Assembly: GCA_903921205.1 (NCBI GenBank)
Contig: CAIXPF010000122.1
Location: 1-46,109, forward strand
Reading direction: 5' to 3'
DNA from: an uncultured Acidimicrobiia bacterium
GTDB taxonomy: Bacteria > Actinomycetota > Acidimicrobiia > Acidimicrobiales > CAIXPF01
Length of the DNA stretch: 46,109 nt
The notes under the pieces are model-generated. The model did no database searches and had not been told where the DNA came from. It was given only the letters and a program-made list of their open reading frames with translations. Made by a program: the position numbers and the translations under genes. This document shows, piece after piece, positions 28,775 to 44,992 of this stretch. The stretch's first letter is position 1; the number at the start of each line of letters is the position of its first letter.

Positions 28775-28820
28775 CAGGGCCCACAGCGCCCACGCACGGC
28801 CCTGAACGTGCACGCTCAGG
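28775..28820. terminator. Nested palindromes at the 3' end of the 393-residue gene
   Basis: A 20-bp near-perfect palindrome (28801-28820, one mismatched pair) overlaps the stop codon of the minus-strand gene, and its CCTG is also part of a second inverted repeat CAGGGCC/GGCCCTG (28775-28804). The two structures exclude each other. Probable terminator; an operator for the downstream MDR gene is an alternative. Confidence 0.45.
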
Positions 28821-29997
28821 GTGCGCCGTCGAACACCCCGCTCAGACCGGTCGGCCCGTGGTTGCCGATCACCAGCTGTTCGAGCACCCCGATGCCGGTT
28901 TGCGAGCCCCAGCGGGCACGGACCAGCTGCTGCACGTGGATGCTGCTCGACGCGGACGGATCGATGTCCTCCGTACGCCAACGCCAGTCGACCGAGGCCT
29001 GCTCGCCCCGCCAGCAGCCGTGGCCCCATTCCGCGTGCCCGTAGCCGAGGCCGCTCATGTGGAAGGTGGCCAGCGGCTCCAGCCGGATGATGTGGGTGTC
29101 GATCCCGCCGAACGGCTCGAGGATGATCGACGCCATGGCGCTCCGACGGGTGCCGGGCTCCCAGTCGATGACGTACTGGGCGTCGCGCATCGGGATCGGC
29201 GGTTCGAGCACCGCGTCCTGGGCTGCCTGCCGCAGCGACTCGGCCGTCCCGGCGGTCCCGTCGTCGGCCTCGCCCAACGCCGCCATACCGTCGAGCAGGA
29301 CCGGAGCGATGGCCCCGAAGCCGTGCCAGCGGCGTCCGTCGGCGAACTCGTTGACATCGAAGAGCACCCCGCAGCCGTCGAAGTTCAACGGCGCCCACAG
29401 CCAGAAGAACTGCGGTGCCCGCCGGGACGGCGCGCCCCGGCCCGCTCGTTCACCGATGGGCCGGACCCCCCACGAGCGGTCGCGGCAGCCGAGCACCGTC
29501 GCGTCGACCTCGATGCGCTCGCCGTCGACGCTCAGCCAGCCCTCCCAGGAGCCGAACTGGGTGACCCGGGTGTAGTCGAGAACGGTGCGACCGTCCTGTT
29601 CGAGCTTGAACGGTGGTTCCTCGACGGCTGCGGTTCGTGCATGGAAAACCAGATCGGCACCGAGGGGGCTCCGGTCGGCGTCGCAGCGGAACCGCAGGGT
29701 CCGCATCGGCTCGATCACGTCGACCCGGAGGTGCCCGACCTCGGTCCGGGTGCGGTCCAACGGCGCCCGGCCCGACGCCAGCGTCGACACCTGCTCGCCG
29801 TTGCGCAGCACACTGAGGCCGGCGTCGATAACCCCCCGGTTCGGATAGATGCCCAACGCAGCGCCGAACATCAACGACCCGTCGCGCCGGTAGCCGTTGA
29901 AGAAGTAGCGGTTGTAGGCGTTGGGACTCGCCGTCTCGACGTGCAGCACCGGGGCCGTGGTCTGGTGGATGGGGTAATCGTCGAATCGGTTCAGCAC
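28816..29997 (-). CDS. Unrecognised 393-residue protein, possibly lipocalin/CrtC-like
   Basis: 393 residues from GTG 29997. No signal peptide or membrane helix. The sequence is rich in beta-strand pattern, Trp and Gly: NAYNRYFFNGYRRDGSLMFGAALG near the start, DRSWGVRP (about 170-180) and WLWAPLNFDGCGVLFDVNEFADG in the middle, and GYGHAEWGHGCWRGEQ near the end. The D-R-S-W-G motif and repeated beta layout recall AttH/CrtC (carotenoid 1,2-hydratase-like) lipocalin-fold proteins, but this is by eye only. It is 50 nt downstream of a MaoC-like gene, so they likely act together, perhaps on a hydrophobic polyketide, steroid or terpenoid substrate. Function unknown. Confidence 0.7.
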   Translation of the reverse strand: MLNRFDDYPIHQTTAPVLHVETASPNAYNRYFFNGYRRDGSLMFGAALGIYPNRGVIDAGLSVLRNGEQVSTLASGRAPLDRTRTEVGHLRVDVIEPMRTLRFRCDADRSPLGADLVFHARTAAVEEPPFKLEQDGRTVLDYTRVTQFGSWEGWLSVDGERIEVDATVLGCRDRSWGVRPIGERAGRGAPSRRAPQFFWLWAPLNFDGCGVLFDVNEFADGRRWHGFGAIAPVLLDGMAALGEADDGTAGTAESLRQAAQDAVLEPPIPMRDAQYVIDWEPGTRRSAMASIILEPFGGIDTHIIRLEPLATFHMSGLGYGHAEWGHGCWRGEQASVDWRWRTEDIDPSASSSIHVQQLVRARWGSQTGIGVLEQLVIGNHGPTGLSGVFDGAP

Positions 29998-30047: not shown

Positions 30048-30896
30048 TCAGCCGACCTGCACGTGACCGTCACGGATGGCGGTGGCACCGTCGGGGGTGC
30101 AGACATCGAAGCGCCCGTCGCCGTACAGCCGGACGGTGAGAGCGGACGGCATCGGCACCATCGCACCGAAACGGCCCCGGATGCGGGTGATCGAGCGCGG
30201 ATCGCCCCCGCCGAGGTGACGCACCGCCGCAGACACGCCATGGGCCAACGTCGCCGTGCCGTGCAGGATCAGGCCGGGTAGATCCGCCGCCAGGGCCACG
30301 GCGAGGTCGGTGTGGATGGGGTTCCAGATCCGTGCGCACTCGGTGTACACGTGGGCGGCACCGGCATCGACCGCCACCTCGACCGTGGCGACCGGATCGC
30401 CCTCGACCGGTGGGAGCGGATCATCGGCCGGGGCCGGCCGGTCCGGTCCGGACACGTCGGTGGCCAGATAGAGCGAGCCCTGTCGGGTGCGGCAGACCAC
30501 GGCCCCGCTCGTGTCGGTGCTGATCATGTCCATCGTGAGGAAGGCGCCGGGCCGGCGTCGTTCCACCCCGATCACCGTGGCCACCGTCGTGAGCACGTCG
30601 CCCGGCACGATCGGCCGTTCGAGCACGCAGTCGTGGGTGGCGTGGATCCCGCGCCGCGTCTCCTCCGGGGTCACCGCGGCGGCGATCGACTCGACACCCT
30701 GCAGGGCCAGCACCGTCGGCCACTCGACACAGACCGGGAACAGCGGATGGGCTGCGATCCCCTCCGGCCGGGCGGTGTCGAGGTAGACCGCGTCGTGCTC
30801 ACCGAGGCCGGCGGCGTAGGACATCAGCCAGCGGGCATCGACCACATGGGTGATGGGCACGGTCTGCCGGCCGACGGCATCGGAGGGTACGGGCAT
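30048..30896 (-). CDS. MaoC-like hotdog-fold protein (degenerate hydratase-2 motif)
   Basis: 282 residues, a double hotdog: N-terminal half with an FAS1-like dehydratase pattern (HATHDCVLERPIVPGDVLTTVATV) and C-terminal half with RIWNPIHTDLAVALAADLPGLILHGTATLA. In the hydratase-2 motif the usual Gly-Asp before x-N-P-I-H is Arg-Ile here, so the catalytic Asp appears lost while the His is kept. It may be an enoyl-CoA hydratase using another acid, or a binding/thioesterase-like relative. ATG 30896 is chosen; a frame extension upstream has no support. It heads an operon with the 393-residue gene. Confidence 0.8.
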   Translation of the reverse strand: MPVPSDAVGRQTVPITHVVDARWLMSYAAGLGEHDAVYLDTARPEGIAAHPLFPVCVEWPTVLALQGVESIAAAVTPEETRRGIHATHDCVLERPIVPGDVLTTVATVIGVERRRPGAFLTMDMISTDTSGAVVCRTRQGSLYLATDVSGPDRPAPADDPLPPVEGDPVATVEVAVDAGAAHVYTECARIWNPIHTDLAVALAADLPGLILHGTATLAHGVSAAVRHLGGGDPRSITRIRGRFGAMVPMPSALTVRLYGDGRFDVCTPDGATAIRDGHVQVG

Positions 30897-30975
30897 GACG
30901 GTCAACCGTTCGGGAGTCGGGGCCGCCCCACCGATGGTCTGGACCCCCGGGCGGCCGATGCAGTAGCCAGAGACT

Positions 30976-31671
30976 ATGGACCTGCTCGACGGAATCGCCA
31001 CCACCCGCGCCATCCGGAGATACCGCCCCGATCCCATCCCCGACGAGGACCTCGCCAAGATCCTCTTCGCCGCCACCCGGGCGCCGTCGGGTTCGAACCG
31101 TCAGGGGTTCCGCTTCATCGTGCTGCGCGACGGCCCCCGGGCGATGCAGGCCCGGGCGCTGCTCGGCGAGGGTGCTCGCCGGATCTGGGAGGAGAAGCGG
31201 GTGCGCGACGGCTACGACGCCGGCTCGGGGGCCGACCTGTCCTCCCCGAAAGCCCGCATGGCCCGCACCATGGAGCATTTCACCGAGCACTTCCACGAGG
31301 CCCCGGTCATCGTCCTGGCGGCACTGTGGTGTCATCGTCGGTCCTCGGTGGTGCTCGGCGGCGCGGTGTGGCCGGCGGTGCAGAACCTGCTGCTCGCCGC
31401 ACGGGGTCTCGGCTACGGCGGGGTCATCACCGGTTGGCAGGAGCCCTGCGAGGCCGAGCTGCGCACCGTCCTCGGGATGCCCGACGACCCCAAGCTGGAG
31501 CTCGTCGCCACCATCCCGTTGGGCCGGCCGGTGGGAAACCACGGCCCGGTGCGTCGTCGTCCGATGGCGGAGATGGTCTACGAGGACGGCTGGGAGGAGC
31601 CCGCCGCCTGGGCCGTGGACCCCGAGGGCACGCGCTTCACCTCCGCCGGTCCACCGCGCACGAAGTCCTGA
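30976..31671 (+). CDS. Nitroreductase family flavoprotein
   Basis: 231 residues. FMN-binding N-terminus TTRAIRRYRPDPIPDEDLAKIL with basic residues for the phosphate, ATRAPSGSNRQGFRF, and the C-terminal QNLLLAARGLGYGGVITGW then PLGRPVGNHGPVRRRP. Members reduce nitro groups, quinones or other acceptors using NAD(P)H; some act as dehalogenases or in flavin metabolism. The reader cannot tell which. It is transcribed divergently from the MaoC-like gene across a 79-nt gap. TAGCCA six bases before the ATG resembles the leaderless -10 box but lacks the final T. Confidence 0.92.
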   Translation: MDLLDGIATTRAIRRYRPDPIPDEDLAKILFAATRAPSGSNRQGFRFIVLRDGPRAMQARALLGEGARRIWEEKRVRDGYDAGSGADLSSPKARMARTMEHFTEHFHEAPVIVLAALWCHRRSSVVLGGAVWPAVQNLLLAARGLGYGGVITGWQEPCEAELRTVLGMPDDPKLELVATIPLGRPVGNHGPVRRRPMAEMVYEDGWEEPAAWAVDPEGTRFTSAGPPRTKS

Positions 31672-32394: not shown

Positions 32395-33087
32395 ATGACC
32401 GACCAGACCACCGACGCGGCATCGCCCGTCCGCGTCACCCGGCACGGACGCGTGCTCCTCGCCACCATGGACGACGGCCGCGCGAACGCCGTGTCCACGA
32501 TGCTGTCCGACGCCTTGCGGACGGTGATCCGTCAGGCCGAACAGGACCCCGAGGTCGGTGCCGTCGTCATCGCCGGCCGGCCGGGCCGGTTCTCGGGCGG
32601 GTTCGACCTCGGGGTGATCCGCGGCGGTGATGCCGCTGCGGTGCGGGCCATGGTCGACGGCGGTGGGGCCCTCGTCACCGAGGCCTACGGTGCCGGTGTC
32701 CCCGTGGTGGCCGCCTGCACCGGGCACGCAGTCGCCGCCGGCGCGCTGATCCTGCTGGGCTGCGACCACCGGGTCGGTCCCGATGCCGACGTGAAGATCG
32801 GGCTCAACGAGGTGGCAATCGGTCTCACCCTGCCTGAATGGGCCCTCGCCATCGCCGCCGAACGGTTGAGCCGTCGCCACCTGCAGGCGTCGGTGGTCAA
32901 CGCACAGCTCTACAACGGCAGCGGCGCCGTGGCCGCAGGGTTCCTCGACCGGGTCGTCGCCCCCGATGCGGTCATCGAGACCGCCCTCGAGCACGCCGCA
33001 GTCCTGGCCGAGCTCGACCCTGCTGCCTACGCCGCCACGGTGCAGGCCCTGCGCGGCCCGACGCTCGCCCGGATGATCACGCGTTGA
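32395..33087 (+). CDS. Crotonase/enoyl-CoA hydratase family protein
   Basis: 230 residues with AAGGAG 5 nt before the ATG. Crotonase fold: oxyanion-hole motif GRFSGGFDLG (about 64-73), second oxyanion segment TGHAVAAGALILLGCDHRVG, and KIGLNEVAIGLTLPEWAL. It is shorter than the 255-260 residues of typical enoyl-CoA hydratases, missing the longer C-terminal helix, and the two catalytic Glu residues are not obvious (only Glu in LNEV is near). It may be a hydratase, isomerase or other crotonase activity in acyl-CoA breakdown. Its stop is overlapped by a possible TTG start of the MFS gene. Confidence 0.88.
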   Translation: MTDQTTDAASPVRVTRHGRVLLATMDDGRANAVSTMLSDALRTVIRQAEQDPEVGAVVIAGRPGRFSGGFDLGVIRGGDAAAVRAMVDGGGALVTEAYGAGVPVVAACTGHAVAAGALILLGCDHRVGPDADVKIGLNEVAIGLTLPEWALAIAAERLSRRHLQASVVNAQLYNGSGAVAAGFLDRVVAPDAVIETALEHAAVLAELDPAAYAATVQALRGPTLARMITR

Positions 33088-34388: not shown

Positions 34389-35501
34389 TCACACCGGCAG
34401 GTGGAAGACCTCGGCCACGTTGCCGAACAGTGCCCGGTCCCGCTGCTCCGTGGTGAGGTGAGCGGTCTGCGAGGCGAGGATCTCCTGGCTGCGCGGCCAC
34501 GTCGAGTCGGTGTGGGGGAAGTCGTTGGCCCACATCAGGCACGACGAGTCGACCATCATCGGCGACTCGTAGGCGGTGCGGTCGTCCTGGAACGTGAAGT
34601 GCACGTTGGACAGCACGTACTCGCTCGGCCGCTTCGAGATGGTCCGCTCCATCGAACGGCCCCACTTCTCCGCCGCATGGTCGGAGCGGTACATCCAATG
34701 GGGCACCCATCCGGCATCACCCTCGGCGACCACCATCTGCAGCTCCGGATGGCGCTCGAACACCCCGCCGAACACGAACAGCCCCAGGATGTCCTGCACC
34801 CCGCGAATCAGGTTCATGAATGCGTTGGCCGAATGACCCCGGGGCGAGGTGAGCGCCGTGGCGGCGTCGTAGTCCTTCGACGTGAGAATGTGGAAGCAGA
34901 TCGGCAGCTCGAGGTCGACCGCGCACTGCCACAGGGCGTCGTAGTCGGGATGGTCGTAGTCCTCGTGCTGGGGGCTGCCCGTGACCATCATGCCCACCAT
35001 GCCCGCCTCCTTGGCGGCGACGAAGTCCTCGATCGCCTCGTCGACGGAGGACACCGCGGTCTGCGCCAGGCCGAACAGACGGTCGGGATGCGCGCCGCAG
35101 AACTCGGCCAACCAGCGGTTGTACGCCTGCATGCACGCCCGCTTGTAGTCGAAGTCGGGGTGGCTGCACAGCACCATGCCCACCGAGGCGAAGATCAGCT
35201 CGCCGCCGATGCCGTCACGGTCCTGGGCGGCGATGCGGTCGTTGGGTTCCCACGCCGCCCGGGTGATCTCGTTGAAGGTGGCTCGCTTGTGTTCCTTGAC
35301 CTCCTCGACGGTCATGCCAGCGGCGGCGAGCTGCCCGACCGAGATCGGGTTGCGCAGCCCGTTGATGGTGTATGCCGAGGCCCCTCGGGCGTTCACGTCG
35401 CAGCGCGGCGCTATGTCTCGATAGCGCGGCTCGATGTAGTCGACGTAGCAGTTCGGCGGCTCGACGATGTGGCTGTCGGCCGAGATCGGTGCCCTGGTCA
35501 T
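34389..35501 (-). CDS. Amidohydrolase 2 (COG2159) family metal-dependent hydrolase/decarboxylase
   Basis: 370 residues. The first metal motif is SADSHIVEPPN (D-S-H-x-x-E-P variant), followed by EPNDRIAAQDRDGIGGELIFA, the beta-5 His in ICFHILTS, a His at VFERHPELQMVVAEGDAGWVPH, and the final Asp in MWANDFPHTDSTWP. This pattern matches the ACMSD/gamma-resorcylate-decarboxylase-like amidohydrolases that decarboxylate or hydrolyse aromatic or enol acids. Start ATG 35501 has AAGGGGGA and a TACCAT box near; the extension to 35618 overlaps the divergent gene and is rejected. A paralogue lies divergently 115 nt away. Confidence 0.9.
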   Translation of the reverse strand: MTRAPISADSHIVEPPNCYVDYIEPRYRDIAPRCDVNARGASAYTINGLRNPISVGQLAAAGMTVEEVKEHKRATFNEITRAAWEPNDRIAAQDRDGIGGELIFASVGMVLCSHPDFDYKRACMQAYNRWLAEFCGAHPDRLFGLAQTAVSSVDEAIEDFVAAKEAGMVGMMVTGSPQHEDYDHPDYDALWQCAVDLELPICFHILTSKDYDAATALTSPRGHSANAFMNLIRGVQDILGLFVFGGVFERHPELQMVVAEGDAGWVPHWMYRSDHAAEKWGRSMERTISKRPSEYVLSNVHFTFQDDRTAYESPMMVDSSCLMWANDFPHTDSTWPRSQEILASQTAHLTTEQRDRALFGNVAEVFHLPV

Positions 35502-35616: not shown

Positions 35617-36783
35617 ATGAACTATGCGGCAGAGGAACTCGACGGTGGCATCGCCGTGCTCGATTGCGACAGCCACCTGATGGAGCCGCTCGACTGGCTC
35701 GTCGGTTACGCCGACGAGGCGACCGGCCGCAAGCTGATGGAACTCGCCTTCACCGGCAGCTCGGCGACCGCCGATCTGGTGCGGGAGTGCTGGGAACGCC
35801 GCAACGACCCCGTGGCCACGGCCAAGCTGGCCGAGAACGTCGTGAGCGGACCCAAGGGCTACTACGCATTCGGTTCGATGGATGCCACCGAGCGCCACCT
35901 GGCGCTCGACCAGCTCGGCTTCGCCGGCCAGCTGGTCTTCTCCACCTTCGCCCCGAACCAGTTCCGCTACGGCGGCGACATGGACCTGCTCTACGGCGGT
36001 GCGGCCGCCCACAACCGCGGCATGGCCGATTTCTGCGCCGGCGATGCCCGCATGCTGCCGGTGGCGTTCGTCCCCCTCGACGACGCCGAGCGCGCCGTGC
36101 CCTGCCTCGAGGAGGCCCTCGACCTCGGATGCCCCGCGGTATGGATACCGCACGGTGTACCCGCCACCCTGAGCCCCACCCATCCTGCGTTCGACGGCAT
36201 CTGGGCCCGGCTGTCGGAGGCGAACGTGCCGATGGTGTTCCACTTCGGTGGCAACGGCTCGACCCAGATGGCGCTGAGCTACCACAACAACGGCCGGGAC
36301 CCGGGCAAGGACTTCGCCGGCGGCGGCGAGAACGTCCGGTCGAAGGACTTCCTCAACGTCCACCACGACGCCGAGAACCTGCTGGCGTGCCTGGTGCTCG
36401 ATGGCATCTTCGAGCAGTTCCCGGACCTGCGCTGTGGGGTCATCGAGTTGGGTGCGGGATGGGTGCCGAACCTGCTCGCCGGGCTCGATCACGCCAAACG
36501 GGCCTTCGGACGCAACGAACCGGAGCTGGCGAAGCTCACCCTCGAACCGTCGGACTACCTGCGCCGTCAGGTCCGCTTCAACCCGTGGCACTTCGAGGAC
36601 GTCGGCCGGCTCATCGACGACTGCGGCCCGAACCTGTTCATGTTCGCCTCCGACTGGCCCCACCCCGAGGGCGGCCGCAACCCGCTCGCCGAGTTCGAGG
36701 CCTCGCTGAACCGGGCCGCCATCGCCCCGGCCGCCCGGCGGGCCTTCTACCACGACAACCTGGCCTGGCTGCTCAACGGCTGA
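35617..36783 (+). CDS. Amidohydrolase 2 (COG2159) family protein, second copy
   Basis: 388 residues with GGGGGAGCGG before the ATG. VLDCDSHLMEPLDWLVGYAD is the same D-S-H-x-x-E-P first motif as the neighbour; then GSMDATERHLALDQLGFAGQLVF, the His in VFHFGGNG, FEQFPDLRCGVIELGAGW, and FASDWPHPEGGRNP with the metal-binding Asp. Sequences are clearly different from the neighbour in the middle, so they are distant paralogues rather than a recent duplication. It is likely the first gene of a run with the crotonase 39 nt downstream. Substrate unknown. Confidence 0.9.
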   Translation: MNYAAEELDGGIAVLDCDSHLMEPLDWLVGYADEATGRKLMELAFTGSSATADLVRECWERRNDPVATAKLAENVVSGPKGYYAFGSMDATERHLALDQLGFAGQLVFSTFAPNQFRYGGDMDLLYGGAAAHNRGMADFCAGDARMLPVAFVPLDDAERAVPCLEEALDLGCPAVWIPHGVPATLSPTHPAFDGIWARLSEANVPMVFHFGGNGSTQMALSYHNNGRDPGKDFAGGGENVRSKDFLNVHHDAENLLACLVLDGIFEQFPDLRCGVIELGAGWVPNLLAGLDHAKRAFGRNEPELAKLTLEPSDYLRRQVRFNPWHFEDVGRLIDDCGPNLFMFASDWPHPEGGRNPLAEFEASLNRAAIAPAARRAFYHDNLAWLLNG

Positions 36784-36822: not shown

Positions 36823-37632
36823 ATGCCGAGCACCGAGAACTTCACCACCATCACCCTCGAACAGGACCCTGCCACCGGTGTGGCCACGATCACGCTGGAC
36901 CGTGCCGAGGCGGCCAATGCCATGAACTGCCCCATGGCGGCGGAGCTGCGCCGGGCCGCGGTGATCCTGGCCCACGACCCCGGCGTTCGGGCGGTGCTCA
37001 TCCGGTCCTTCGGCAAGGTCTTCTGCGGCGGAGGCGACCTGGCGGCGTTCGCCGGGCTGAGCGCGCAGGAGCTTCCGGCCTACGTCGACAACCTCACCAT
37101 CGACCTGCACGCCGCGGTGGCGCGGCTGGCCAAGATGGACGCGCCGGTGGTGGTGGCGGTTTCCGGTTCGGCCGGCGGTGCGGGCATGTCGCTGGTGGCG
37201 GCGTGCGACCTCGTGGTGGCCGGCGAGTCGGCCAAGTTCACCATGGGCTACACCAAGGCCGGGTTGATGCCCGACGGGACCTCGTCGTTCTTCCTGGCCC
37301 GTGTGGTCGGGCTGCGCCGGGCCACCGACCTGGTACTGACCAACCGGGTGCTCACAGCGCGCGAGGCCGAGGAGTGGGGCCTGGTGAACCGGGTCGTGCC
37401 CGACGCCGAGGTGCAGGCGGCGGCGCAGGAGCTGGCCACGACCCTGGCCAACGGACCCACCCGCGCGTTCGGCCTCGCCAAGCGTGTCCTGATCGAGGGT
37501 GCGTCGAGTTCGTTGGAGGAGGCCATGGAACGCGAGTCGCGCTCCATCGGTCTCGCCGGGGCGACCGCCGATGCACGCGAGGGCATCGCGGCGTTCCTCG
37601 GCAAGCGCCCAGCGAACTTCCGGGGCGCCTGA
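36823..37632 (+). CDS. Enoyl-CoA hydratase/isomerase family protein (PaaG-like)
   Basis: 269 residues, the usual crotonase length. Oxyanion-hole segments are KVFCGGGDLAAF (about 66-77) and SGSAGGAGMSLVAACDLVV. The catalytic area reads YTKAGLMPDGTSSFFLARVVG, with Asp in place of the hydratase Glu; PaaG-type enoyl-CoA isomerases have a comparable P-D-G/A-G pattern, so isomerase activity is favoured. The C-terminal helix (ANGPTRAFGLAKRVL) is complete. It likely serves beta-oxidation-like steps in the surrounding catabolic block. Confidence 0.93.
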   Translation: MPSTENFTTITLEQDPATGVATITLDRAEAANAMNCPMAAELRRAAVILAHDPGVRAVLIRSFGKVFCGGGDLAAFAGLSAQELPAYVDNLTIDLHAAVARLAKMDAPVVVAVSGSAGGAGMSLVAACDLVVAGESAKFTMGYTKAGLMPDGTSSFFLARVVGLRRATDLVLTNRVLTAREAEEWGLVNRVVPDAEVQAAAQELATTLANGPTRAFGLAKRVLIEGASSSLEEAMERESRSIGLAGATADAREGIAAFLGKRPANFRGA

Positions 37633-37643
37633 CGCCCGGGCGG

Positions 37644-37649
37644 TACGCT
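37644..37649 (+). promoter_or_regulatory. Candidate -10 box of the PhyH-cupin-ThDP operon
   Basis: TACGCT, followed by a 32-nt stretch with a GGGGGGA Shine-Dalgarno before ATG 37682. It would give the operon its own leadered promoter. Confidence 0.4.
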
Positions 37650-37681
37650 GAGGCCACGAGCGCGATCCGGGGGGATGGGCG

Positions 37682-38884
37682 ATGACCGACAGCATGATCG
37701 ACAGCAGGTCGCCGGTGGACGGGTTGACCCGCGAGCAGCACGCCGCCGAGATGGCGGAGTACCTCCGGCACGGCGAAGCACGAGCAGCGGCCCTGGGCAA
37801 TCGGGGCCCGGTGCGCCGTACCGCCGACGGGCGGCTGCACCCCGACATCCTGGCGGCCTTCGACGTGCACGGCTTCTACGTGTTCGAGGGCGTCGTCGAC
37901 GAGCAGGAACTGGCCGAGCTGCGCGCCGGCGCCGAGGACATGATCAGCCGTGCACCGGTGCGGCGCGGCGAGAAGGTCGATGCGCTGGGCCGTCCGGCGC
38001 TCGGTCAGGACTACGCCATCCAGCCGTACCTTCTGGTACGTCCGCTGTCGGACCCGTGGGGCGGCACGGCGGCACTCGGGGGTCGTCACCCGTCGAAGAT
38101 GACCGAGCCGGTACCCGATCCCGACGCCCCGGAGAACGTCGTCTACCTGATGTTCGGCATGTGCCAGGCCATACCGGCTGCGCTGCGGCTCTACGGCCAC
38201 CCCGACATCCTGACCATCGCCGCGTCGGTCAACGGCACCGACTTCGTGCCCTACAACGACGCCATCTTCGTCAAGCAACCCGGTTTGGGAGGCTCGGTGT
38301 CGTGGCATCAGGACGGCATCACCCACTGGGACTCGCCACACTGGGACCAGGGCATCCACGGCTTCAACTTCCAGGTGCAGCTGTACCGCACCACGGCGGC
38401 CAACGGCCTGTGGGTACTGCCCGGTACGCACCGCACAGGACGGGTCGACATCAAGCAGCTGGTCGCCGACAACGGGGGCAGCGACCGGCTACCGGGAGCG
38501 GTCCCGTTGCTGTGCGAGCCCGGCGATGTCACCATCGTGAACCGCCAGACGCTGCACGGCTCCTTCGCCAACACCTCGCCCGACACCCGGGTGTCGATCA
38601 CCTTCGGGTTCCACCGCCGGTCCTCGGTGCTCGGGGTGCGGGGCAAGCTCAGCCTCAAGGCCGACGACCTCAGCTGGCAGGACGGCGACGCCTACGACGA
38701 GGCACGCATCGACGACCGGTCCGCGGTGATCGCGCTGGCCATCGACGCCCGCCAGCAGCACCGGCCCGGCGAGCCGCGGTTCCGCTACGAGCCCTTCGCC
38801 GGCCGGGAGGACGACTTCCGCTTCGGCGAGGACACCTTCGAGCGGTACATCCGCGACTACAACACCCGCGACCTGGCCATCTGA
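37682..38884 (+). CDS. Phytanoyl-CoA dioxygenase (PhyH) family Fe(II)/2-oxoglutarate oxygenase
   Basis: 400 residues. The Fe-binding facial triad is visible: His209 and Asp211 in SWHQDGITHW, and His292 in LHGSFANTSPD, with Arg303 (DTRVSITFGF) to bind 2-oxoglutarate. NGLWVLPGTHR is the usual PhyH strand before the distal His. PhyH enzymes hydroxylate a carbon next to a carboxyl or CoA-thioester, or other unactivated positions. An extra N-terminal region of about 55 residues precedes the core. It heads a compact three-gene operon (gaps 34 and 24 nt). The substrate is not readable. Confidence 0.9.
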   Translation: MTDSMIDSRSPVDGLTREQHAAEMAEYLRHGEARAAALGNRGPVRRTADGRLHPDILAAFDVHGFYVFEGVVDEQELAELRAGAEDMISRAPVRRGEKVDALGRPALGQDYAIQPYLLVRPLSDPWGGTAALGGRHPSKMTEPVPDPDAPENVVYLMFGMCQAIPAALRLYGHPDILTIAASVNGTDFVPYNDAIFVKQPGLGGSVSWHQDGITHWDSPHWDQGIHGFNFQVQLYRTTAANGLWVLPGTHRTGRVDIKQLVADNGGSDRLPGAVPLLCEPGDVTIVNRQTLHGSFANTSPDTRVSITFGFHRRSSVLGVRGKLSLKADDLSWQDGDAYDEARIDDRSAVIALAIDARQQHRPGEPRFRYEPFAGREDDFRFGEDTFERYIRDYNTRDLAI

Positions 38885-38918
38885 ACGGCCCTCGCCCGTA
38901 ACGCGACAGGAGCACCCC

Positions 38919-39554
38919 ATGGCCGACCAGGACGAGCACTGGGTCGAGGTTCGCGACGAGCCCCGCCACCGTCGCCGCTTCGAGAACGAGTTCGTGCGGG
39001 TCTACGACGTGCTCATCCCGCCCGGTGACACCACGCTGTACCACCGTCACACCGAGGACACCTTCTACGTGGCGGTGAACGAGGCCACCGTTCGCGACCG
39101 CACCTGGGGCGAGGACGAGCCGCGTACCGGCACCGCCCCGGCGGGCTCGTGCCTGTGCCGGCCGCACCGGGCCCGGCCCCTCATCCACCAGGTGCACAAC
39201 CTCGGTCCGGGTGAGATGCGTCTGATCGGCGCCGAGATCAAGGCGGCACCCGCGGTCACCACCGCAGCGCCACTCAGCGCGGCCGGTCACGCCCTCACCC
39301 TGGAACGAGACCGGCTCCGGGTGTACGAGCTGGCCCTCGAGCCGGGCCAGTCCACCGGCGACATCGTCTACGGGTTCTCCGGTCTGACCGTGCTGCTCAC
39401 CGTCGCCACCTGGCTGGTGCGCCACGCCGACGGGAGCGAGCGCACGGTGATCCTGGCCCCCGGTGACGTGCTGTGGCAGCCCGGGCCGCTGGGCCTGTCC
39501 ATCACCAACATCGGCGAAGAGCCCTGCCGGGCCGCGCTCGGCGAGTGGCGCTGA
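38919..39554 (+). CDS. Bicupin-like protein
   Basis: 211 residues with AGGAG before the ATG. The first half has a cupin core: IPPGDTTLYHRHTEDTFYVAV with His42, His44 and an acidic residue nearby, and HQVHNLG (His90, His93). The second half repeats a beta layout (VYELALEPGQSTGDIVYGFSGLTVLLTVATW, then LAPGDVLWQPG) without the His ligands, so only one domain is likely to bind metal. I do not recognise a named family. Lying between a dioxygenase and a ThDP enzyme, it may be an isomerase, dioxygenase or accessory of that pathway; this is inference. Confidence 0.75.
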   Translation: MADQDEHWVEVRDEPRHRRRFENEFVRVYDVLIPPGDTTLYHRHTEDTFYVAVNEATVRDRTWGEDEPRTGTAPAGSCLCRPHRARPLIHQVHNLGPGEMRLIGAEIKAAPAVTTAAPLSAAGHALTLERDRLRVYELALEPGQSTGDIVYGFSGLTVLLTVATWLVRHADGSERTVILAPGDVLWQPGPLGLSITNIGEEPCRAALGEWR

Positions 39555-39578
39555 TCCGAGCACGAACAGGAGCCCGCC

Positions 39579-41237
39579 GTGGACGGCAACGAACTGATCG
39601 CGTCCATCCTGCGCCGTGAGGGCGTGGAGTGGATGGCCTGCTTCCCGAACAACCCGCTGATCGAGGCGGCCGCGCGGGCCGGCATCCGCCCGATCGCGTT
39701 CCGCCACGAAAGGGGCGCCGTCATGGCCGCGGACGGCTTCAGCCGTCTGAGCGACCGTGCCCGGTTCGGTGTGGTGGCCGTGCAGTCGCAGGCCGGCGCC
39801 GAGAACGCCCTCGGCGGTGTCGCGCAGGCCTACGCCGACAACATTCCCGTGCTGGTGCTGCCGGGCGGCCCGGCTTCCAACGAGATCGGGGTCCGGCCGA
39901 ACTACTCGGCGGTCCGCAACTACCAGGGCGTGGCCAAGTCGGTGGAGGCCATCCACCGTCCCGAGGACATCGTGGCGATCATGCGACGGGCCTTCAGCGC
40001 GCTGCGCAACGGCCCGGCCGGGCCGGTGGTGGTCGAGCTGACGGCGGATGTGTGCCGCCAGCCCGTTCCCGACGGTGCCGCCGAGGCGTACCGCCCACCG
40101 GTGCCGGCGCGCCAGGGACCCGACCCGGTGGCCATCGCTGCGGCGGTGGACGCCCTGCTCGCGGCCGAGCGTCCGGTGATCTGGGCCGGCGGCGGGGTGC
40201 TTTTCGGTGGGGCGACCGAGGAGCTGCGTCAGCTCGCGGAGCTGACCGCGACGCCGGTGTTCTGCACGATGCAGGGCAAGTCCGCCCTCGATGAGCGTCA
40301 TCCGCTGTCCCTCGGCAGCGGGGGAATGACGGCGACCGCCCCGGCTGCGGCCTGGTTGCGCCAGTGCGACCTCCTGCTGGCCGTCGGTACCAGCCTCACC
40401 CGCACCCCGTACGGACAACGCGTGCCCGGCCGGGCGATCCTGGTGCACAACAGCGACAACCCCGATGCGCTGGGCAAGGACGAGCGGGTCGACATCCCGC
40501 TGCCCGGCGACGCGCGGCTCACGCTCGCGGCGCTCATCGCCGAGGCGAGGGCCCGGCTCGCCGGCCGTCCACGCGAGCTCGGCCCGGTGGCGGCAGCGAT
40601 TGCCGAGGCGCATGGTGCCTGGCAGGACCTCTGGCGGCCCGCCCTGCAGTCCGACGAGCAGCCGTTGGGCTACTACCGGGTGATCGACGTGCTCAACGAG
40701 GTCCTCGACCACGAGCGCAGCATCGTCACCCACGACGCCGGTGCGCCGCGCGACTGCATGGTGCCGTTCTACCGGGCCACGGTGCCGCACTCCTACGTCG
40801 GTTGGGGCAAGACCACCCATCTCGGCTTCGGCATCCCGTTGATGATCGGCGCGAAGCTCGCCCATCCCGACCGCTTCTGCCTCAACGTGATGGGGGACGG
40901 CGCGTTCGGGATGTCCGGCACCGATCTCGAGACGGCGGCCCGCTCGGGCGTGGCCATCACCACGGTGCTGTTGAACAACGGGGCCATGGCCACCTATCCG
41001 ATCGGCACGCCGATGGACCCGGTCACCGCCCGGACCCAGTTCGGCGTCACCACGATGTCCGGCGACTACGCCAAGATCGCCGAGGGCATGGGCGCGGTAG
41101 GTATGACGGTGCGCACGACGGAGGAGCTCCGGGCCGGCCTGCGCCAGGCCCAGCAGCTCAACGCCGAGGGACGGACCGTACTGCTCGACGTCATCGCCAA
41201 CACCGAGTCGCGCCGCTCGCCCGACCGACCGGGCTGA
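39579..41237 (+). CDS. Thiamine-diphosphate-dependent enzyme (acetolactate synthase/2-hydroxyacyl-CoA lyase superfamily)
   Basis: 552 residues from GTG with CAGGAG upstream. Three-domain ThDP enzyme: the proton-relay Glu44 in RHERGAVMAADGFSR (Pyr domain), a central domain (about 183-340), and the PP domain with the ThDP motif GDG at 439-441 running to NN at 466-467. The superfamily includes acetolactate synthase, benzoylformate decarboxylase, oxalyl-CoA decarboxylase and 2-hydroxyacyl-CoA lyase. The GAFGMSGTDLETAARSGV region resembles that of the lyase/decarboxylase branch, but no CoA or FAD site can be confirmed by eye. As the third gene after a PhyH dioxygenase it could cleave the hydroxylated product. 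Confidence 0.9.
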   Translation: MDGNELIASILRREGVEWMACFPNNPLIEAAARAGIRPIAFRHERGAVMAADGFSRLSDRARFGVVAVQSQAGAENALGGVAQAYADNIPVLVLPGGPASNEIGVRPNYSAVRNYQGVAKSVEAIHRPEDIVAIMRRAFSALRNGPAGPVVVELTADVCRQPVPDGAAEAYRPPVPARQGPDPVAIAAAVDALLAAERPVIWAGGGVLFGGATEELRQLAELTATPVFCTMQGKSALDERHPLSLGSGGMTATAPAAAWLRQCDLLLAVGTSLTRTPYGQRVPGRAILVHNSDNPDALGKDERVDIPLPGDARLTLAALIAEARARLAGRPRELGPVAAAIAEAHGAWQDLWRPALQSDEQPLGYYRVIDVLNEVLDHERSIVTHDAGAPRDCMVPFYRATVPHSYVGWGKTTHLGFGIPLMIGAKLAHPDRFCLNVMGDGAFGMSGTDLETAARSGVAITTVLLNNGAMATYPIGTPMDPVTARTQFGVTTMSGDYAKIAEGMGAVGMTVRTTEELRAGLRQAQQLNAEGRTVLLDVIANTESRRSPDRPG

Positions 41238-41250
41238 ACCGCTCGCCCCA

Positions 41251-41301
41251 GACCGATTCGACCGGTGTCGAACGTACCCCTCGGTATGGTCGAGACCGGT
41301 C
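41251..41301. terminator. Imperfect inverted repeats between convergent genes
   Basis: GACCGATTCGACC (41251-41263) faces a near-complement at 41288-41301, and a smaller TTCGAC/GTCGAA repeat lies inside. Possible shared terminator of the ThDP and cupin genes; weak because of mismatches. Confidence 0.35.
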
Positions 41302-41327
41302 AGTCGTGCGAAGCCAGGCGGGCGATG

Positions 41328-41810
41328 TCAGCCCTGGGTGTCGTCGGTGATCACCGGCGGATCGGCCAGCCCGGCCTTGGCGCAACGCCGGCGGTAGTAC
41401 GACAAAACGCTGGCGGCGTCGGTGACCGACTCCACCGATCCGTCCTCGGCGAGGTTCAGGTTGGCCCCGTAGATCTGGAACCACACGTCGGTCACCTCGG
41501 TGTTGGATGCGGGCACCACCAGGGTGTGGATCGAACCGGCCGGCTCGTACAGGAACGACCCGGCCCGGTTCACGTACTCCGACTCGAGGTAGTGCCACGA
41601 GCCGCTCGAGGTGTACGCGTAGACCGCACCGGTGTGCTTGTGGGTCTGCACCACCACACCGGGCTCGAAGCGGGTCCGCACGATGAACAGCCCTTCGCGG
41701 ATCTTCGCCACCAGCACCTTGGTCTGGGTGCCACGGCCGTCATCGATCCAGGGCAGGTCGTCGTCGCCGCGGTGCACGGCGCTGGGGGCATGCTCAATCG
41801 CCATCGTCAT
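41328..41810 (-). CDS. Cupin protein, 2,4'-dihydroxyacetophenone dioxygenase-like
   Basis: 160 residues. LPWIDDGRGTQTKVL at the start, RFEPGVVVQTHKHTGAVYAYTSSGSWHY with metal-ligand His57 and His59, and EPAGSIHTLVVP with His95; the canonical Glu four residues after the second His is replaced. This layout matches the DHAP-dioxygenase/ChrR-like cupin group, which cleaves aromatic ketones or binds Zn/Fe. A TAGGGT box six bases before the ATG gives a leaderless promoter. It lies opposite to the ThDP operon, so it may be part of the same pathway under separate control. Confidence 0.85.
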   Translation of the reverse strand: MTMAIEHAPSAVHRGDDDLPWIDDGRGTQTKVLVAKIREGLFIVRTRFEPGVVVQTHKHTGAVYAYTSSGSWHYLESEYVNRAGSFLYEPAGSIHTLVVPASNTEVTDVWFQIYGANLNLAEDGSVESVTDAASVLSYYRRRCAKAGLADPPVITDDTQG

Positions 41811-41966: not shown

Positions 41967-42941
41967 ATGCGTGCCGTGATCTGCAAGGCCTTCGGACCGC
42001 CCGAGAACCTCGTGGTGGAGGACGTGCCCGTGCCGGTGGCCGGTCCGGGCCAGCTGCTCGTCGAGGTCAAGGCCTCGGCGGTGACCTTTCCCGACACCCT
42101 GATGCTCGAGGACAAGTACCAGTTCAAGGCGCCGCCGCCCTACACGCCCGGCGGCGAGGTCGCCGGCATGGTGAGCGTGGTCGGTGACGGGGTGAGCGGG
42201 TTCGCCGTCGGCGATCGCGTCGTGGGTGGCCTCGGCACCACGGGCGGCTACGCCGAGTATTCGCTGGTCGCCGCGGCCGGTGCCCGCAAGCTGCCCGACG
42301 GGGTGGGCTTCGCCGAGTCGACCGGCCTGAACTACGCCTACGGCACCACCCTGTACGGCCTGAAGTACCGCGGCAACCTCAAGGCCGGCGAGACGTTGCT
42401 CATCCTGGGAGCGGGCGGCAGTGTCGGCCTCACCGCAGTCGAGCTGGGCAAGCTGATGGGTGCCCGGGTGATCGCCTGCGCGTCGAGCGAGGAGAAGCTG
42501 CAGCTGTGCCGCGAGCGCGGCGCGGACGAGACGATCAACTATGCGACCGAGGACCTCAAGGAGCGGGCCAAGGAGCTCACCGGCGGCGCCGGGGTCGACG
42601 TGGTGTACGACTGCGTCGGTGGCGCGTATGCCGAGGCTGCGCTGCGGGCCACCGGTTGGGAGGGCCGATTCCTGGTGGTCGGCTTCACCGCCGGCATCCC
42701 GTCGGTGCCGTTGAACCTCACGCTGCTCAAGAGCTGCCAGATCGTCGGGGTGTTCTACGGGGCCATGACGGCACGCGACCCGGCCCTGCGCGACGCCATC
42801 GTCGCCGAGCTGATCGAGCTGACCGCCACGGGCAAGCTCCGCCCCCACGTGTCGGGCCGCTATCCGCTCGAGCGCGCCGGCGAGGCGCTCCGATCGCTGA
42901 TGGACCGCAAGGCCCTCGGCAAGGTCGTCATCGAGCCCTAG
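41967..42941 (+). CDS. MDR family NADPH:quinone oxidoreductase-like protein
   Basis: 324 residues with AAGGGGGA before the ATG. N-terminal GroES fold with ASAVTFPDTLMLEDKYQFK and TPGGEVAGMV, then Rossmann motif LILGAGGSVGLTAVELGKLMGA, and DVVYDCVGGAYAEAALR. No zinc-ligand cysteine pattern. It resembles the other MDR protein at 27643-28644 in fold and length but differs in sequence, so it is a separate paralogue. It is followed 51 nt later by an SDR gene in the same orientation, a likely operon. Enoyl reduction or quinone reduction is likely; substrate unknown. Confidence 0.93.
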   Translation: MRAVICKAFGPPENLVVEDVPVPVAGPGQLLVEVKASAVTFPDTLMLEDKYQFKAPPPYTPGGEVAGMVSVVGDGVSGFAVGDRVVGGLGTTGGYAEYSLVAAAGARKLPDGVGFAESTGLNYAYGTTLYGLKYRGNLKAGETLLILGAGGSVGLTAVELGKLMGARVIACASSEEKLQLCRERGADETINYATEDLKERAKELTGGAGVDVVYDCVGGAYAEAALRATGWEGRFLVVGFTAGIPSVPLNLTLLKSCQIVGVFYGAMTARDPALRDAIVAELIELTATGKLRPHVSGRYPLERAGEALRSLMDRKALGKVVIEP

Positions 42942-42992: not shown

Positions 42993-43946
42993 ATGGAACA
43001 ACGATTCGCCGACGGGTTCGACGGCTGCGTGGCCGTGGTGACCGGTGGTGGGACCGGCATGGGCCGCGAGCTGGTTCGCCAGCTGACGGCGGGGGGCTGT
43101 GACGTCGCGACCTGCGACGTGCTGCTCGCCAATGCCGATGCCACTGCGGCGATGTGCCGGGCGGACGGCCACCGTGGCGAGGTCCTCACCGTTGCCGCCG
43201 ACGTCTCCGATGAGTCGGCGGTCCTGGCCTTCGCCGAGGCGGTCCAGGCCTGGCGCCCGCACGTGAACCTGTTGTTCAACAATGCCGGCATCGGCGGGGG
43301 CGGCACCATCGTCAACGGCGATCGCGACCAGTGGGAGCGGGTGTTCAACGTCTGTTGGTACGGCGTGTACTTCAGTACCCGGGCATTCCTGCCACAGCTG
43401 CTGCGAGCCCCGGTCGGGCACGTGGTGAACACCAGCTCGGTGAACGGCTTCTTCGCCTCCATCGGTCCCGGCATGCCGCACTCGGCGTACAGCGCCGCCA
43501 AGTTCGCCGTGAAGGGATTCACCGAGGCCCTGCTCGTCGACTTCGCCCAGAACGCCCCGCACCTCGGGGCGTCGGTGGTGATGCCCGGCCACATCGGCAC
43601 GGAGATCGCCGCGAACTCCGACCGCCTGTTGGGCCTCGACGACGTCGGGCGTCTACGGGCCCGTTATGCCGGGGCCGGTCGTGACGCCTCGGCGCTGTCC
43701 GACGACGAGCTGCGGGCACGCATGCAGCGTCGGGGCGAGGCGTTCCGCGACAGCGCCCCGACCACGGCGGCCGAGGCGGCGACGATCATCCTCGACGCCG
43801 TGCAGGCCGGGCACTGGCGGATCCTCGTCGGCCACGACGCCGAGCTGCTCGACGAGCTGGTGCGGGCCGACCCCGAGCAGGCCTACACCCCGGGCTTCTA
43901 CCGACGCTGGCTCGCCCGGGCGGAGGCCGATCGCCCGGATCGGTGA
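42993..43946 (+). CDS. Short-chain dehydrogenase/reductase (long C-terminus)
   Basis: 317 residues with GGGAGA before the ATG. TGGGTGMG (17-24), NNAG (96-99), catalytic Ser148/149, Tyr166 and Lys170 (YSAAK), and an MPGHIGTEI segment after the active site. It is about 50 residues longer than classical SDRs; the extra C-terminal part (AAEAATIILDAVQAGHWRILVG and a charged tail) is common in SDRs that act on bulky or steroid/acyl substrates. The family reduces or oxidises a hydroxyl group with NAD(P). It pairs with the MDR reductase upstream. Confidence 0.92.
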   Translation: MEQRFADGFDGCVAVVTGGGTGMGRELVRQLTAGGCDVATCDVLLANADATAAMCRADGHRGEVLTVAADVSDESAVLAFAEAVQAWRPHVNLLFNNAGIGGGGTIVNGDRDQWERVFNVCWYGVYFSTRAFLPQLLRAPVGHVVNTSSVNGFFASIGPGMPHSAYSAAKFAVKGFTEALLVDFAQNAPHLGASVVMPGHIGTEIAANSDRLLGLDDVGRLRARYAGAGRDASALSDDELRARMQRRGEAFRDSAPTTAAEAATIILDAVQAGHWRILVGHDAELLDELVRADPEQAYTPGFYRRWLARAEADRPDR

Positions 43947-44014: not shown

Positions 44015-44992
44015 ATGAGTGGCATCATTGCGGCATCCTCCCTGGCCCTGGCACGCGACAACCTCACTTCCGTGCCCGTGCTGGCCTTCGTGGTTGGCCT
44101 GGTGGCCACGTTGGCGCGCAGCGAGCTGCGGCTGCCCGAGTCGGCCGTGAAGCTGATCTCCGCCTACCTGCTCTTCGCCATCGGCCTCAAGGGAGGCCAC
44201 AAACTGGCCAGCACCTCAGCCGGCGACATGGTCGGGCCGACCATCGCCACGATCGGGTTGGGGGTCGTCATCCCCTTGGCGGTGTTCGGGGTGCTGCGGT
44301 GGTGGGCGCGCTTCTCGCTCGCAGACTCCGGGGCGATCGCAGCGCACTACGGGTCGGTCTCGGCGGTGACCTTCACTGCCGCCGCCGCCTTCGCCACGAC
44401 CGCCGGTCACGCCCCTGAAGGGTTCATGCCCGCGCTCGTGGCGATCATGGAGATCCCGGGCATCGTCATACCGCTCGTCATCGTGGCGCTCCTCACCGGC
44501 CGCGCCAGCCTCAAGGAGGCACTGACCGAGGTCCTGCTGGGCAAGTCGGTCATGCTCCTCGGTGGCGGCCTGCTCATCGGCTGGCTCGCCGGCCCCCGTG
44601 GCTTCGCCGACGTCGCCCCGTTCTTCGAGGCGCCCTTCAAGGGAGTGTTGGCGCTGTTCCTGCTCGAACTCGGCGCACTTGCCGCCACCCATCTCCAGGC
44701 CGTGCGCAAGGTCGGCCGTCAGCTCATCGGGCTGGCCGTCGTCGGGCCGGTGCTCTTCGGCACGATCGGCGTGGCGGCCGGGGTTGCCGCCGGGCTGTCC
44801 ACCGGCGGGGCGGCCGTGCTCGGAGCGATGGCCGCGAGCGCCTCCTACATCGCAGCTCCCGCTGCGGTCAGCGTGGCGCTGCCCGACGCCAATCCCGCCT
44901 ACTCGCTGACCGCGGCACTGGGCATCACGTTCCCGTTCAACCTGGTGATCGGGATACCGCTCACCCTGCAGTTGGCGATCTGGCTCGGCTGA
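44015..44992 (+). CDS. SbtA-type sodium-dependent bicarbonate transporter family protein
   Basis: 325 residues, about ten hydrophobic helices in two inverted halves. Family motifs: LLFAIGLKGGHKL near 50-62, IAAHYGSVSAVTFTAA (the substrate-site segment of SbtA), GFMPALVAIMEIPGIVIPLVIV, and the C-terminal half AAVLGAMAASASYIAAPAAVSVALPDANPAYSLTAALGITFPFNL. These match SbtA-like bicarbonate/sodium symporters (cyanobacterial SbtA is somewhat longer, with a cytoplasmic loop). Function outside cyanobacteria is less certain, so substrate is a prediction. No SbtB (PII-like) gene is adjacent in the window. Confidence 0.9.
   Translation: MSGIIAASSLALARDNLTSVPVLAFVVGLVATLARSELRLPESAVKLISAYLLFAIGLKGGHKLASTSAGDMVGPTIATIGLGVVIPLAVFGVLRWWARFSLADSGAIAAHYGSVSAVTFTAAAAFATTAGHAPEGFMPALVAIMEIPGIVIPLVIVALLTGRASLKEALTEVLLGKSVMLLGGGLLIGWLAGPRGFADVAPFFEAPFKGVLALFLLELGALAATHLQAVRKVGRQLIGLAVVGPVLFGTIGVAAGVAAGLSTGGAAVLGAMAASASYIAAPAAVSVALPDANPAYSLTAALGITFPFNLVIGIPLTLQLAIWLG

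Follow-up and report, generated by a model that had tools for sequence, protein, structure and literature searches.

A genus-level gene unit with a PhyH-family dioxygenase, a bicupin and a PRK06154-like thiamine diphosphate enzyme in Acidimicrobiia

In peroxisomal alpha-oxidation, phytanic acid is broken down by the dioxygenase PHYH together with HACL1, a thiamine diphosphate (ThDP)-dependent 2-hydroxyacyl-coenzyme A (CoA) lyase. Here we describe a bacterial locus with the same two enzyme classes. It lies on contig CAIXPF010000122.1 (contig 122) of the 4.36 Mb genome of an uncultured Acidimicrobiia bacterium (GCA_903921205.1), and the 46,109 nucleotides that were analyzed are called the window below. 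The initial annotation of this DNA read three consecutive genes as an alpha-oxidation-like module, in which a PhyH enzyme would hydroxylate an acyl-CoA and a 2-hydroxyacyl-CoA lyase (HACL) would then release formyl-CoA. The three reading frames are confirmed as intact and co-directional, at the coordinates and with the gaps that it gave (34 nt between PhyH and bicupin, 24 nt between bicupin and ThDP enzyme):

37682..38884 (+), PhyH-family Fe(II)/2-oxoglutarate dioxygenase; 400 aa; PF05721, 5.5e-19
38919..39554 (+), bicupin; 211 aa; sub-threshold match to Cupin_2
39579..41237 (+), ThDP-dependent enzyme (P0003); 552 aa, GTG start; NF004807, 597.5 bits

The locus differs from the peroxisomal system in that its ThDP enzyme does not appear to be a HACL and its PhyH protein has EvdO1 as the closest solved relative. 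The same pair of functions has been annotated as alpha-oxidation in SAR202 genomes, according to the accessible part of PMC5395668. Among described relatives of the ThDP enzyme, NF004807 (PRK06154) is the best family match, nearly full length, and its members in genomes G029 and G005 form a 100/100 clade with the enzyme; unlike them, the window's protein scores just below the curated cut-off (607 bits), and its own subclade (58-94% identity) has the sequence GKTTHLG, in contrast to GKTTQLG in the proteins of G029 and G005. HACLs and oxalyl-CoA decarboxylases (OXC) share the fold and the ThDP site at 21-27% identity and are possibly a sister clade, but the window's enzyme lacks their CoA/ADP arginines and their Q/E motif and falls outside their supported clade. 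BbmA, a ThDP-dependent HKA synthase (8x3x), is the closest solved protein by sequence (1.1e-53) and has the top Z score in structural comparison, near many others, but its identity to the enzyme is just 28-30%. A literature search by the name PRK06154 found no paper, none on BbmA was among the matches listed, and a search on PhyH with HACL operons found nothing on this system.

We tentatively favor, with somewhat less than even confidence, a reading of the locus as a genus-level, probably catabolic unit of Acidimicrobiia that is built round a recurring, CoA-independent pair of enzymes for hydroxylation and subsequent cleavage. The PhyH protein would hydroxylate a small, probably CoA-free organic substrate. 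A neighboring short-chain dehydrogenase (SDR) or zinc-binding/quinone-type dehydrogenase (MDR) may, as an optional step, oxidize the resulting alcohol to a carbonyl compound. Cleavage of the C-C bond beside the carbonyl would then fall to the ThDP enzyme, acting either as a 2-oxo-acid decarboxylase, which the initial annotation had offered as its alternative, or as a lyase of acyloins or 2-hydroxy ketones. The bicupin is proposed as a lineage-specific accessory of this unit.

Family and active site of the ThDP enzyme

Pfam matches bear out the annotated types of both enzymes, and in the ThDP enzyme the TPP_enzyme N, M and C domains are all above cut-off. NF004807 is titled 'thiamine pyrophosphate-requiring protein' and is a family without assigned function; the relatives in G029 and G005 exceed its cut-off with 803 and 769 bits. 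The second NCBIfam match is acolac_lg (TIGR00118), at 273.6 bits against a cut-off of 538.35. The HACL model NF058623 (cut-off 600 bits) is not among the best 25 of 52 NCBIfam families, the 25th of which scores 183.5 bits. By record title, the members of the family found here come from Acidimicrobiia, Chloroflexi, Latescibacteria, Poribacteria and Proteobacteria.

In a tree of 47 rows, the 100/100 clade that unites the ThDP enzyme and its kin with the two NF004807 proteins sits on a long branch and is excluded from a HACL/OXC clade (98/97), with the deeper order unsupported. A 21-row tree also has a HACL/OXC clade that excludes the ThDP family (98 in the Shimodaira-Hasegawa-like approximate likelihood ratio test, SH-aLRT). 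It sets the family apart from the acetolactate synthases (ALS), and a constrained grouping with ALS and glyoxylate carboligase (Gcl) was not rejected (approximately unbiased test, p-AU 0.054). Both trees were built without above-cut-off HACL sequences; a search with the HACL model gave no protein over cut-off in 41 genomes. Judged from these sequence comparisons, the enzyme is probably a sister branch of NF004807/PRK06154, outside HACL/OXC and outside the ALS. A position among the ALS had been named at the outset as an outcome that would count against the annotation, and the enzyme is inside the ALS in neither tree. Its own genome holds a better OXC gene and a better HACL-like gene: the first encodes a distinct OXC-like protein that scores 555.5 bits (cut-off 557), and the second a protein (L185) that reaches 367 bits with the HACL model and has PRK05858 as its best match (512 bits).

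The ThDP site was annotated as intact, and this stands: Glu44, Gly439-Asp440 and Asn466-Asn467 are invariant in 40/40 rows. The residues that mark HACL-type enzymes (HACL/S) are described in the part of PMC11271303 available to us, in ApbHACL/S numbering, as E50, a Phe-Glu pair at 116-117 (Gln or Asp elsewhere), R260 and R400 for acyl-CoA, and R156 and R276 for ADP, the four arginines being called conserved in HACL/Ss. We mapped them by hand, via an alignment, onto the OXC of the window's own genome; this protein and E. coli Oxc retain all of the mapped residues. In 29 rows of the ThDP family the catalytic Glu is always found, whereas the CoA-binding arginines never are (Ala or Val for R260; Val, Met or Ile for R400). 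The equivalent of R276 is Ser in every row, and R156 is kept in 3/29. At the F/Y-Q/E motif the F/Y is kept and the next two positions (117-118) are gaps in 29/29, the gap placement being approximate as the motif lies in a loop. The ThDP enzyme likewise lacks the F-Q-E motif that acetolactate synthases have. By sequence, the protein thus has an intact ThDP site without CoA/ADP anchors of the HACL/OXC type. Its annotation as a 2-hydroxyacyl-CoA lyase, and with it the alpha-oxidation-like module, finds no support here: the enzyme is outside the HACL/OXC clade, its best match is an uncharacterized family and the anchors are missing.

The family has an invariant segment of its own, Gly408-Trp409-Gly410-Lys411-Thr412-Thr413-His414-Leu415-Gly416 (GWGKTTHLG), which aligns with the GTxGTMG-type loop of other ThDP enzymes. 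That loop sits at the cofactor in known structures, and the GWGKTTHLG loop, expected to be close to it, may bind a carboxylate or some other anion. A structure model of the enzyme has a mean predicted local distance difference test score (pLDDT) of 89.0. With this model, VIA-align places HKA synthase and Gcl first, and the best 50 rows span only Z 39.5-42.5; the modeled structure does not discriminate among types of ThDP enzyme.

The dioxygenase, the bicupin and the three-gene block

The PhyH protein matches PF05721 with 69.7 bits (cut-off 22; E 5.5e-19). Its facial triad, His209, Asp211 and His292, which had been annotated as intact Fe ligands, is invariant in 22/22 homologues, as is Arg303, probably the 2-oxoglutarate-binding Arg. 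Judged by sequence, this protein therefore has an intact Fe(II)/2-oxoglutarate site. By sequence its closest solved relative is EvdO1 (6e-11), an antibiotic biosynthesis enzyme. The initial annotation had assumed that hydroxylation by PhyH enzymes takes place beside a CoA thioester. This premise is too narrow, since PF05721 is a broad family that includes the CoA-free ectoine and phosphonate hydroxylases, as stated in the accessible text of PMC3909097.

The own genome has a second PhyH paralogue, 56% identical (G000:C141:11684-12787, or L163:7685-8788), and neither a bicupin nor a ThDP match above 60 bits lies in the 16 kb around it. More than 20 PhyH-family matches per genome were found in G067, G069, G070, G080 and G097, which are Latescibacteria, Caldilineaceae and Poribacteria records; these high counts agree with a published expansion of PhyH in Poribacteria (PMC3909097, in the part available). 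We also looked at PhyH homologues in 20 stretches of DNA, 19 of which were gene-called (L164 was left out) and 14 of which had the PhyH gene placed. No common partner is obvious across the 14 placed contexts. A ThDP match over 60 bits is present only in L164, from the same genus, and in L177, where the gene is a distant paralogue (23% identity, 119 bits).

The bicupin has only a sub-threshold Pfam match, to Cupin_2 (18.9 bits, cut-off 27.2). His42, His44 and His90 lie in its first cupin, and the second cupin is without HxH, as judged by eye. The annotation as a single-metal bicupin is hence a fair one, and one metal site (H42, H44, H90) is its probable complement. Prediction of its structure from two sequences only was too poor to use (mean pLDDT 36.9).

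A scan of a genome collection gave 312 relatives of the ThDP enzyme. The top 80, which are 58-94% identical in their best segment, were analyzed further, with flanks of up to 8 kb, shorter where contigs end. The nearest are in records titled Acidimicrobiia or similar. In the genus, 3/4 genomes, the own included, have a close ThDP gene (100, 94 and 86%); in the fourth, G002, which is 88% complete, no close ThDP gene was found. Both genus relatives have PhyH and the bicupin beside the ThDP gene, amidohydrolases upstream, and MDR and SDR downstream. Their loci are L032 and L164, the latter with a ThDP gene that runs off the contig and continues in L031. The flanks of the other 78 ThDP loci contain neither the PhyH nor the bicupin of the window (tblastn, 1e-4). 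Among 39 genomes with ThDP loci, the bicupin has 2 strong matches, both in members of the genus, and 2 weak ones; in 295 other genomes of a phylum sample it has 0 strong and 8 weak matches. Across the genomes searched, neither the PhyH-bicupin-ThDP block nor the bicupin extends beyond one genus. The expected conservation of the three-gene order across relatives was not seen outside it, a result that the initial annotation had itself named as contrary to its proposal. By tblastn coordinates, 40/80 loci have no close co-directional partner of the ThDP gene, in some cases owing to contig ends.

Co-occurrence of the two enzymes and competing explanations

PhyH and the ThDP enzyme are not random genomic neighbors. 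The genomes of 39 of the 80 ThDP loci were searched for PhyH, and 30 of them hold a full-length homologue (E <1e-110; best match 50-91% identical). Outside the genus the count is 28/37, with none of the homologues in the available flanks of the ThDP gene. In the sample of 296 genomes of the phylum, in which the ThDP gene was left unsearched, PhyH has a strong match in its own genome only (next best 1.3e-9).

Two wider groups were searched for both genes, with E-value thresholds, and a genome-size cut of 3.9 Mb used below, of our choosing. The order of G081 (145 genomes; ThDP E <=1e-150, PhyH E <=1e-80) has ThDP in 3 genomes and PhyH in 5, and PhyH is present in 3/3 ThDP-positive versus 2/142 ThDP-negative genomes (Fisher 2e-5, or 6e-4 without the chosen genome; all Fisher values here ignore the relatedness of genomes). 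The class of G085 (220 genomes; ThDP E <=1e-130, PhyH E <=1e-80) has ThDP in 12, PhyH in 17 and both in 9, against 0.93 expected. PhyH is thus found in 9/12 ThDP-positive versus 8/208 ThDP-negative genomes (Fisher 2e-9, or 2e-7 without two genomes known beforehand). Four of these 12 ThDP matches are 63-65% identical, with PhyH in 3 of the 4 genomes. Among the 59 class genomes of at least 3.9 Mb, 11 have ThDP, 14 PhyH and 9 both (PhyH in 9/11 versus 5/48, p 7e-6). On a RecA tree, PhyH is present in 8/10 ThDP genomes compared with 1/10 of their nearest ThDP-free relatives and 6/30 over the three nearest. This pairing used 100 genomes that we picked, mostly larger ones, from 206 with RecA, and some comparators are shared; it covers 10/12 ThDP-positive and 16/17 PhyH-positive genomes (G595 is without a RecA match and the place of G723 is not listed). 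The co-occurrence supports the part of the initial annotation in which PhyH and the ThDP enzyme belong together.

Oxygenases of the PhyH and TauD types also recur beside ThDP genes elsewhere. Within 4 kb of the ThDP gene there are 24 matches in 18/80 loci over 556 kb (4.3 per 100 kb), and further out 5 matches in 5 loci over 442 kb (1.1 per 100 kb; p 0.004 by matches). The profiles were seeded from the 80 loci and the window, several seeds being near the ThDP gene, which favors 'near', and many rows come from related loci, so that near and far rates are inflated. By our own grouping, the matches come from about eight arrangements:

PhyH-bicupin-ThDP: the genus of the window
PhyH with dienelactone hydrolase: Latescibacteria, L039, L041 and L100
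divergent PhyH: Caldilineaceae, six loci
TauD on both sides: Pseudomonadales, L045 and L056
TauD: alphaproteobacteria, L072, L094 and L101
further loci: L074, L080 and L104

In L039, L041 and L100, PhyH, dienelactone hydrolase and ThDP genes stand in a row, with a second PhyH on the other strand (Pfam for L039 only). Other gene types, near versus far per 100 kb, were SDR 3.4 versus 2.0, luciferase-like monooxygenases 2.3 versus 1.6, MDR 0.7 versus 0.9 and CoA transferases 1.8 versus 2.5.

A number of observations weigh against the reading that we favor, some by questioning the pair itself and others by pointing to CoA chemistry or away from 2-oxo acids. PhyH and the ThDP gene could be ordinary neighbors in one genus, with no shared pathway, and their co-occurrence could merely mark large catabolic genomes. 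The block is seen in the genus only, and the gene contexts of both proteins elsewhere are highly varied. When the oxygenases are counted as arrangements, by our own grouping, there are 8 near and 3 far (p 0.37). Eight of the 12 ThDP matches in the class of G085 are 42-46% relatives from outside the own subclade, with PhyH in 6/8. A supported-branch pairs test on a poorly resolved FastTree RecA tree left 2 usable pairs and has no power. OXC, another catabolic gene, is present in 3/220 genomes and is too rare to serve as a control; because 2 of these 3 genomes hold both PhyH and the ThDP gene, confounding by lifestyle is possible, and some of the co-occurrence may reflect a catabolic way of life that these genomes have in common. 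However, the association holds among the larger genomes of the class and against nearest relatives (8/10 versus 1/10), and the Fe/2-oxoglutarate oxygenases that recur beside the ThDP gene are non-orthologous. We consider the absence of a shared pathway somewhat unlikely.

Alpha-oxidation would require that PhyH hydroxylates an acyl-CoA at C2 and that the ThDP enzyme is a divergent 2-hydroxyacyl-CoA lyase releasing formyl-CoA. The pair of enzyme types and their co-occurrence fit this, and SAR202 offers an annotated precedent. The ThDP family is sister to HACL/OXC in the 21-row tree (SH-aLRT 93, not starred), HACL structures rank first in Foldseek (21-27% identity), and near versus far of the ThDP genes there are 2.0 versus 0 acyl-CoA dehydrogenases and 1.6 versus 0.2 crotonases per 100 kb; with these two gene types nearby and a crotonase gene in the unit itself, a CoA route is possible. 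The residue test is not absolute, because six HACL-like rows below the cut-off have R260 in 4/6, R156 in 1/6 and R276 and R400 in 0/6, and because three ALS rows carry R156 and R276 in 3/3, so that the ADP arginines are not HACL-specific. Of the single residues R260 tells the most, and it is lacking throughout the 29 rows, as are R276, R400 and the Q/E motif, with R156 in 3 of them; NF058623 is also outside the best 25 family matches. Furthermore, the 17 window proteins scanned with Pfam include no CoA ligase, whereas a studied actinobacterial 2-hydroxyacyl-CoA lyase gene sits with a CoA ligase gene, as described in the part of PMC7176365 available. We regard alpha-oxidation as decidedly improbable. 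A carboligase of two 2-oxo acids, similar to acetolactate, HKA or tartronate-semialdehyde synthase, with PhyH at another step of a shared biosynthetic or salvage route, is also unlikely in our view. BbmA is the best solved relative by sequence and fills the top VIA-align rows (Z 42.5), and acolac_lg is the second NCBIfam match; but the low identity to BbmA, the narrow range of Z over the best 50 rows, the missing F-Q-E motif and, although it does not reject a grouping with ALS/Gcl, the p-AU of 0.054 speak against it.

For the CoA-independent pair, a 2-oxo-acid substrate of the ThDP enzyme fits the genes at L040, L047, L086, L098 and L110, where an Ldh_2, 2-hydroxyacid dehydrogenase or D-serine-dehydratase-like gene lies within 0.5 kb of the ThDP gene, since these gene types can make 2-oxo acids. 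The 2-hydroxyacid dehydrogenase profile is not enriched near the ThDP gene (0.54 versus 0.45 per 100 kb). A broader and rather doubtful extension is that PhyH-type Fe/2-oxoglutarate dioxygenases and PRK06154-like ThDP enzymes form an unrecognized two-enzyme module over many phyla, usually unlinked, as a CoA-free analogue of alpha-oxidation for resistant small molecules. Under our reading, a thiamine-enzyme family without known function acquires a probable partner and a chemistry that can be tested. The reading also cautions that 'bacterial alpha-oxidation', where it is inferred from annotation, as for SAR202 in the accessible part of PMC5395668, needs a check of the CoA-binding residues.

Flanking genes and extent of the unit

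The three genes are preceded and followed in the window by:

34389..35501 (-), amidohydrolase 2 family protein (amh1); PF04909, 3.8e-20; divergent from the unit, genus-conserved
35617..36783 (+), amidohydrolase 2 family protein (amh2); PF04909, 2.9e-15; probable first gene of the unit
36823..37632 (+), crotonase / enoyl-CoA hydratase family protein; PF00378, 1.8e-51
41328..41810 (-), small cupin (ChrR-like Cupin_7); PF12973, 1.8e-13; convergent with the unit
41967..42941 (+), zinc-binding/quinone-type dehydrogenase (MDR); PF00107, 7.5e-30; genus-conserved
42993..43946 (+), short-chain dehydrogenase (SDR); PF00106, 8.2e-40; genus-conserved

Since amh2 and the crotonase gene run in the same direction as the three genes, with gaps of 39 nt between them and 49 nt before PhyH, the unit probably comprises five co-directional genes, for amidohydrolase, crotonase, PhyH, bicupin and ThDP enzyme, with gaps of 24-49 nt. 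An own Shine-Dalgarno sequence had been annotated for each of the last three; AGGAG is indeed upstream of the bicupin and ThDP starts, but the PhyH start is preceded by a G-run only. The promoter assigned to PhyH was not recovered, as a search for sigma-70-like promoters in 37400-41400, which is a weak test, gave 0 sites.

In the genus, amh1, whose start codon is our choice within an ORF listed to 35618, is 93% identical in L032 and 95% in L164, and amh2 is 86% and 96% identical, respectively. In L077, the second gene upstream of the ThDP gene encodes a 40% relative of amh2. The crotonase is found in L164 and is without a tblastn match in L032. A homologue of the small cupin adjoins the ThDP gene in L031, and L032 has a profile match to it. 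MDR is 91% identical in L032 and 95% in L031, and SDR 84% and 95%.

Further upstream on the reverse strand, a MaoC/FAS1-like double dehydratase is encoded at 30048-31076 (-); along with crotonases at 32395 and 36823, it hints at acyl-CoA chemistry nearby. Between an MDR gene and a MaoC-like dehydratase gene lies a 393-aa protein without a Pfam match at 1e-5 (28816-29997, -). Downstream, from 45134 to the end of the window (+), where the contig end cuts the gene, there is a start that by eye resembles a lipoprotein substrate-binding protein. A gene of the Na+-dependent bicarbonate transporter family (Sbt_1, 1.8e-100; 44015-44989, +) adjoins the catabolic-type genes.

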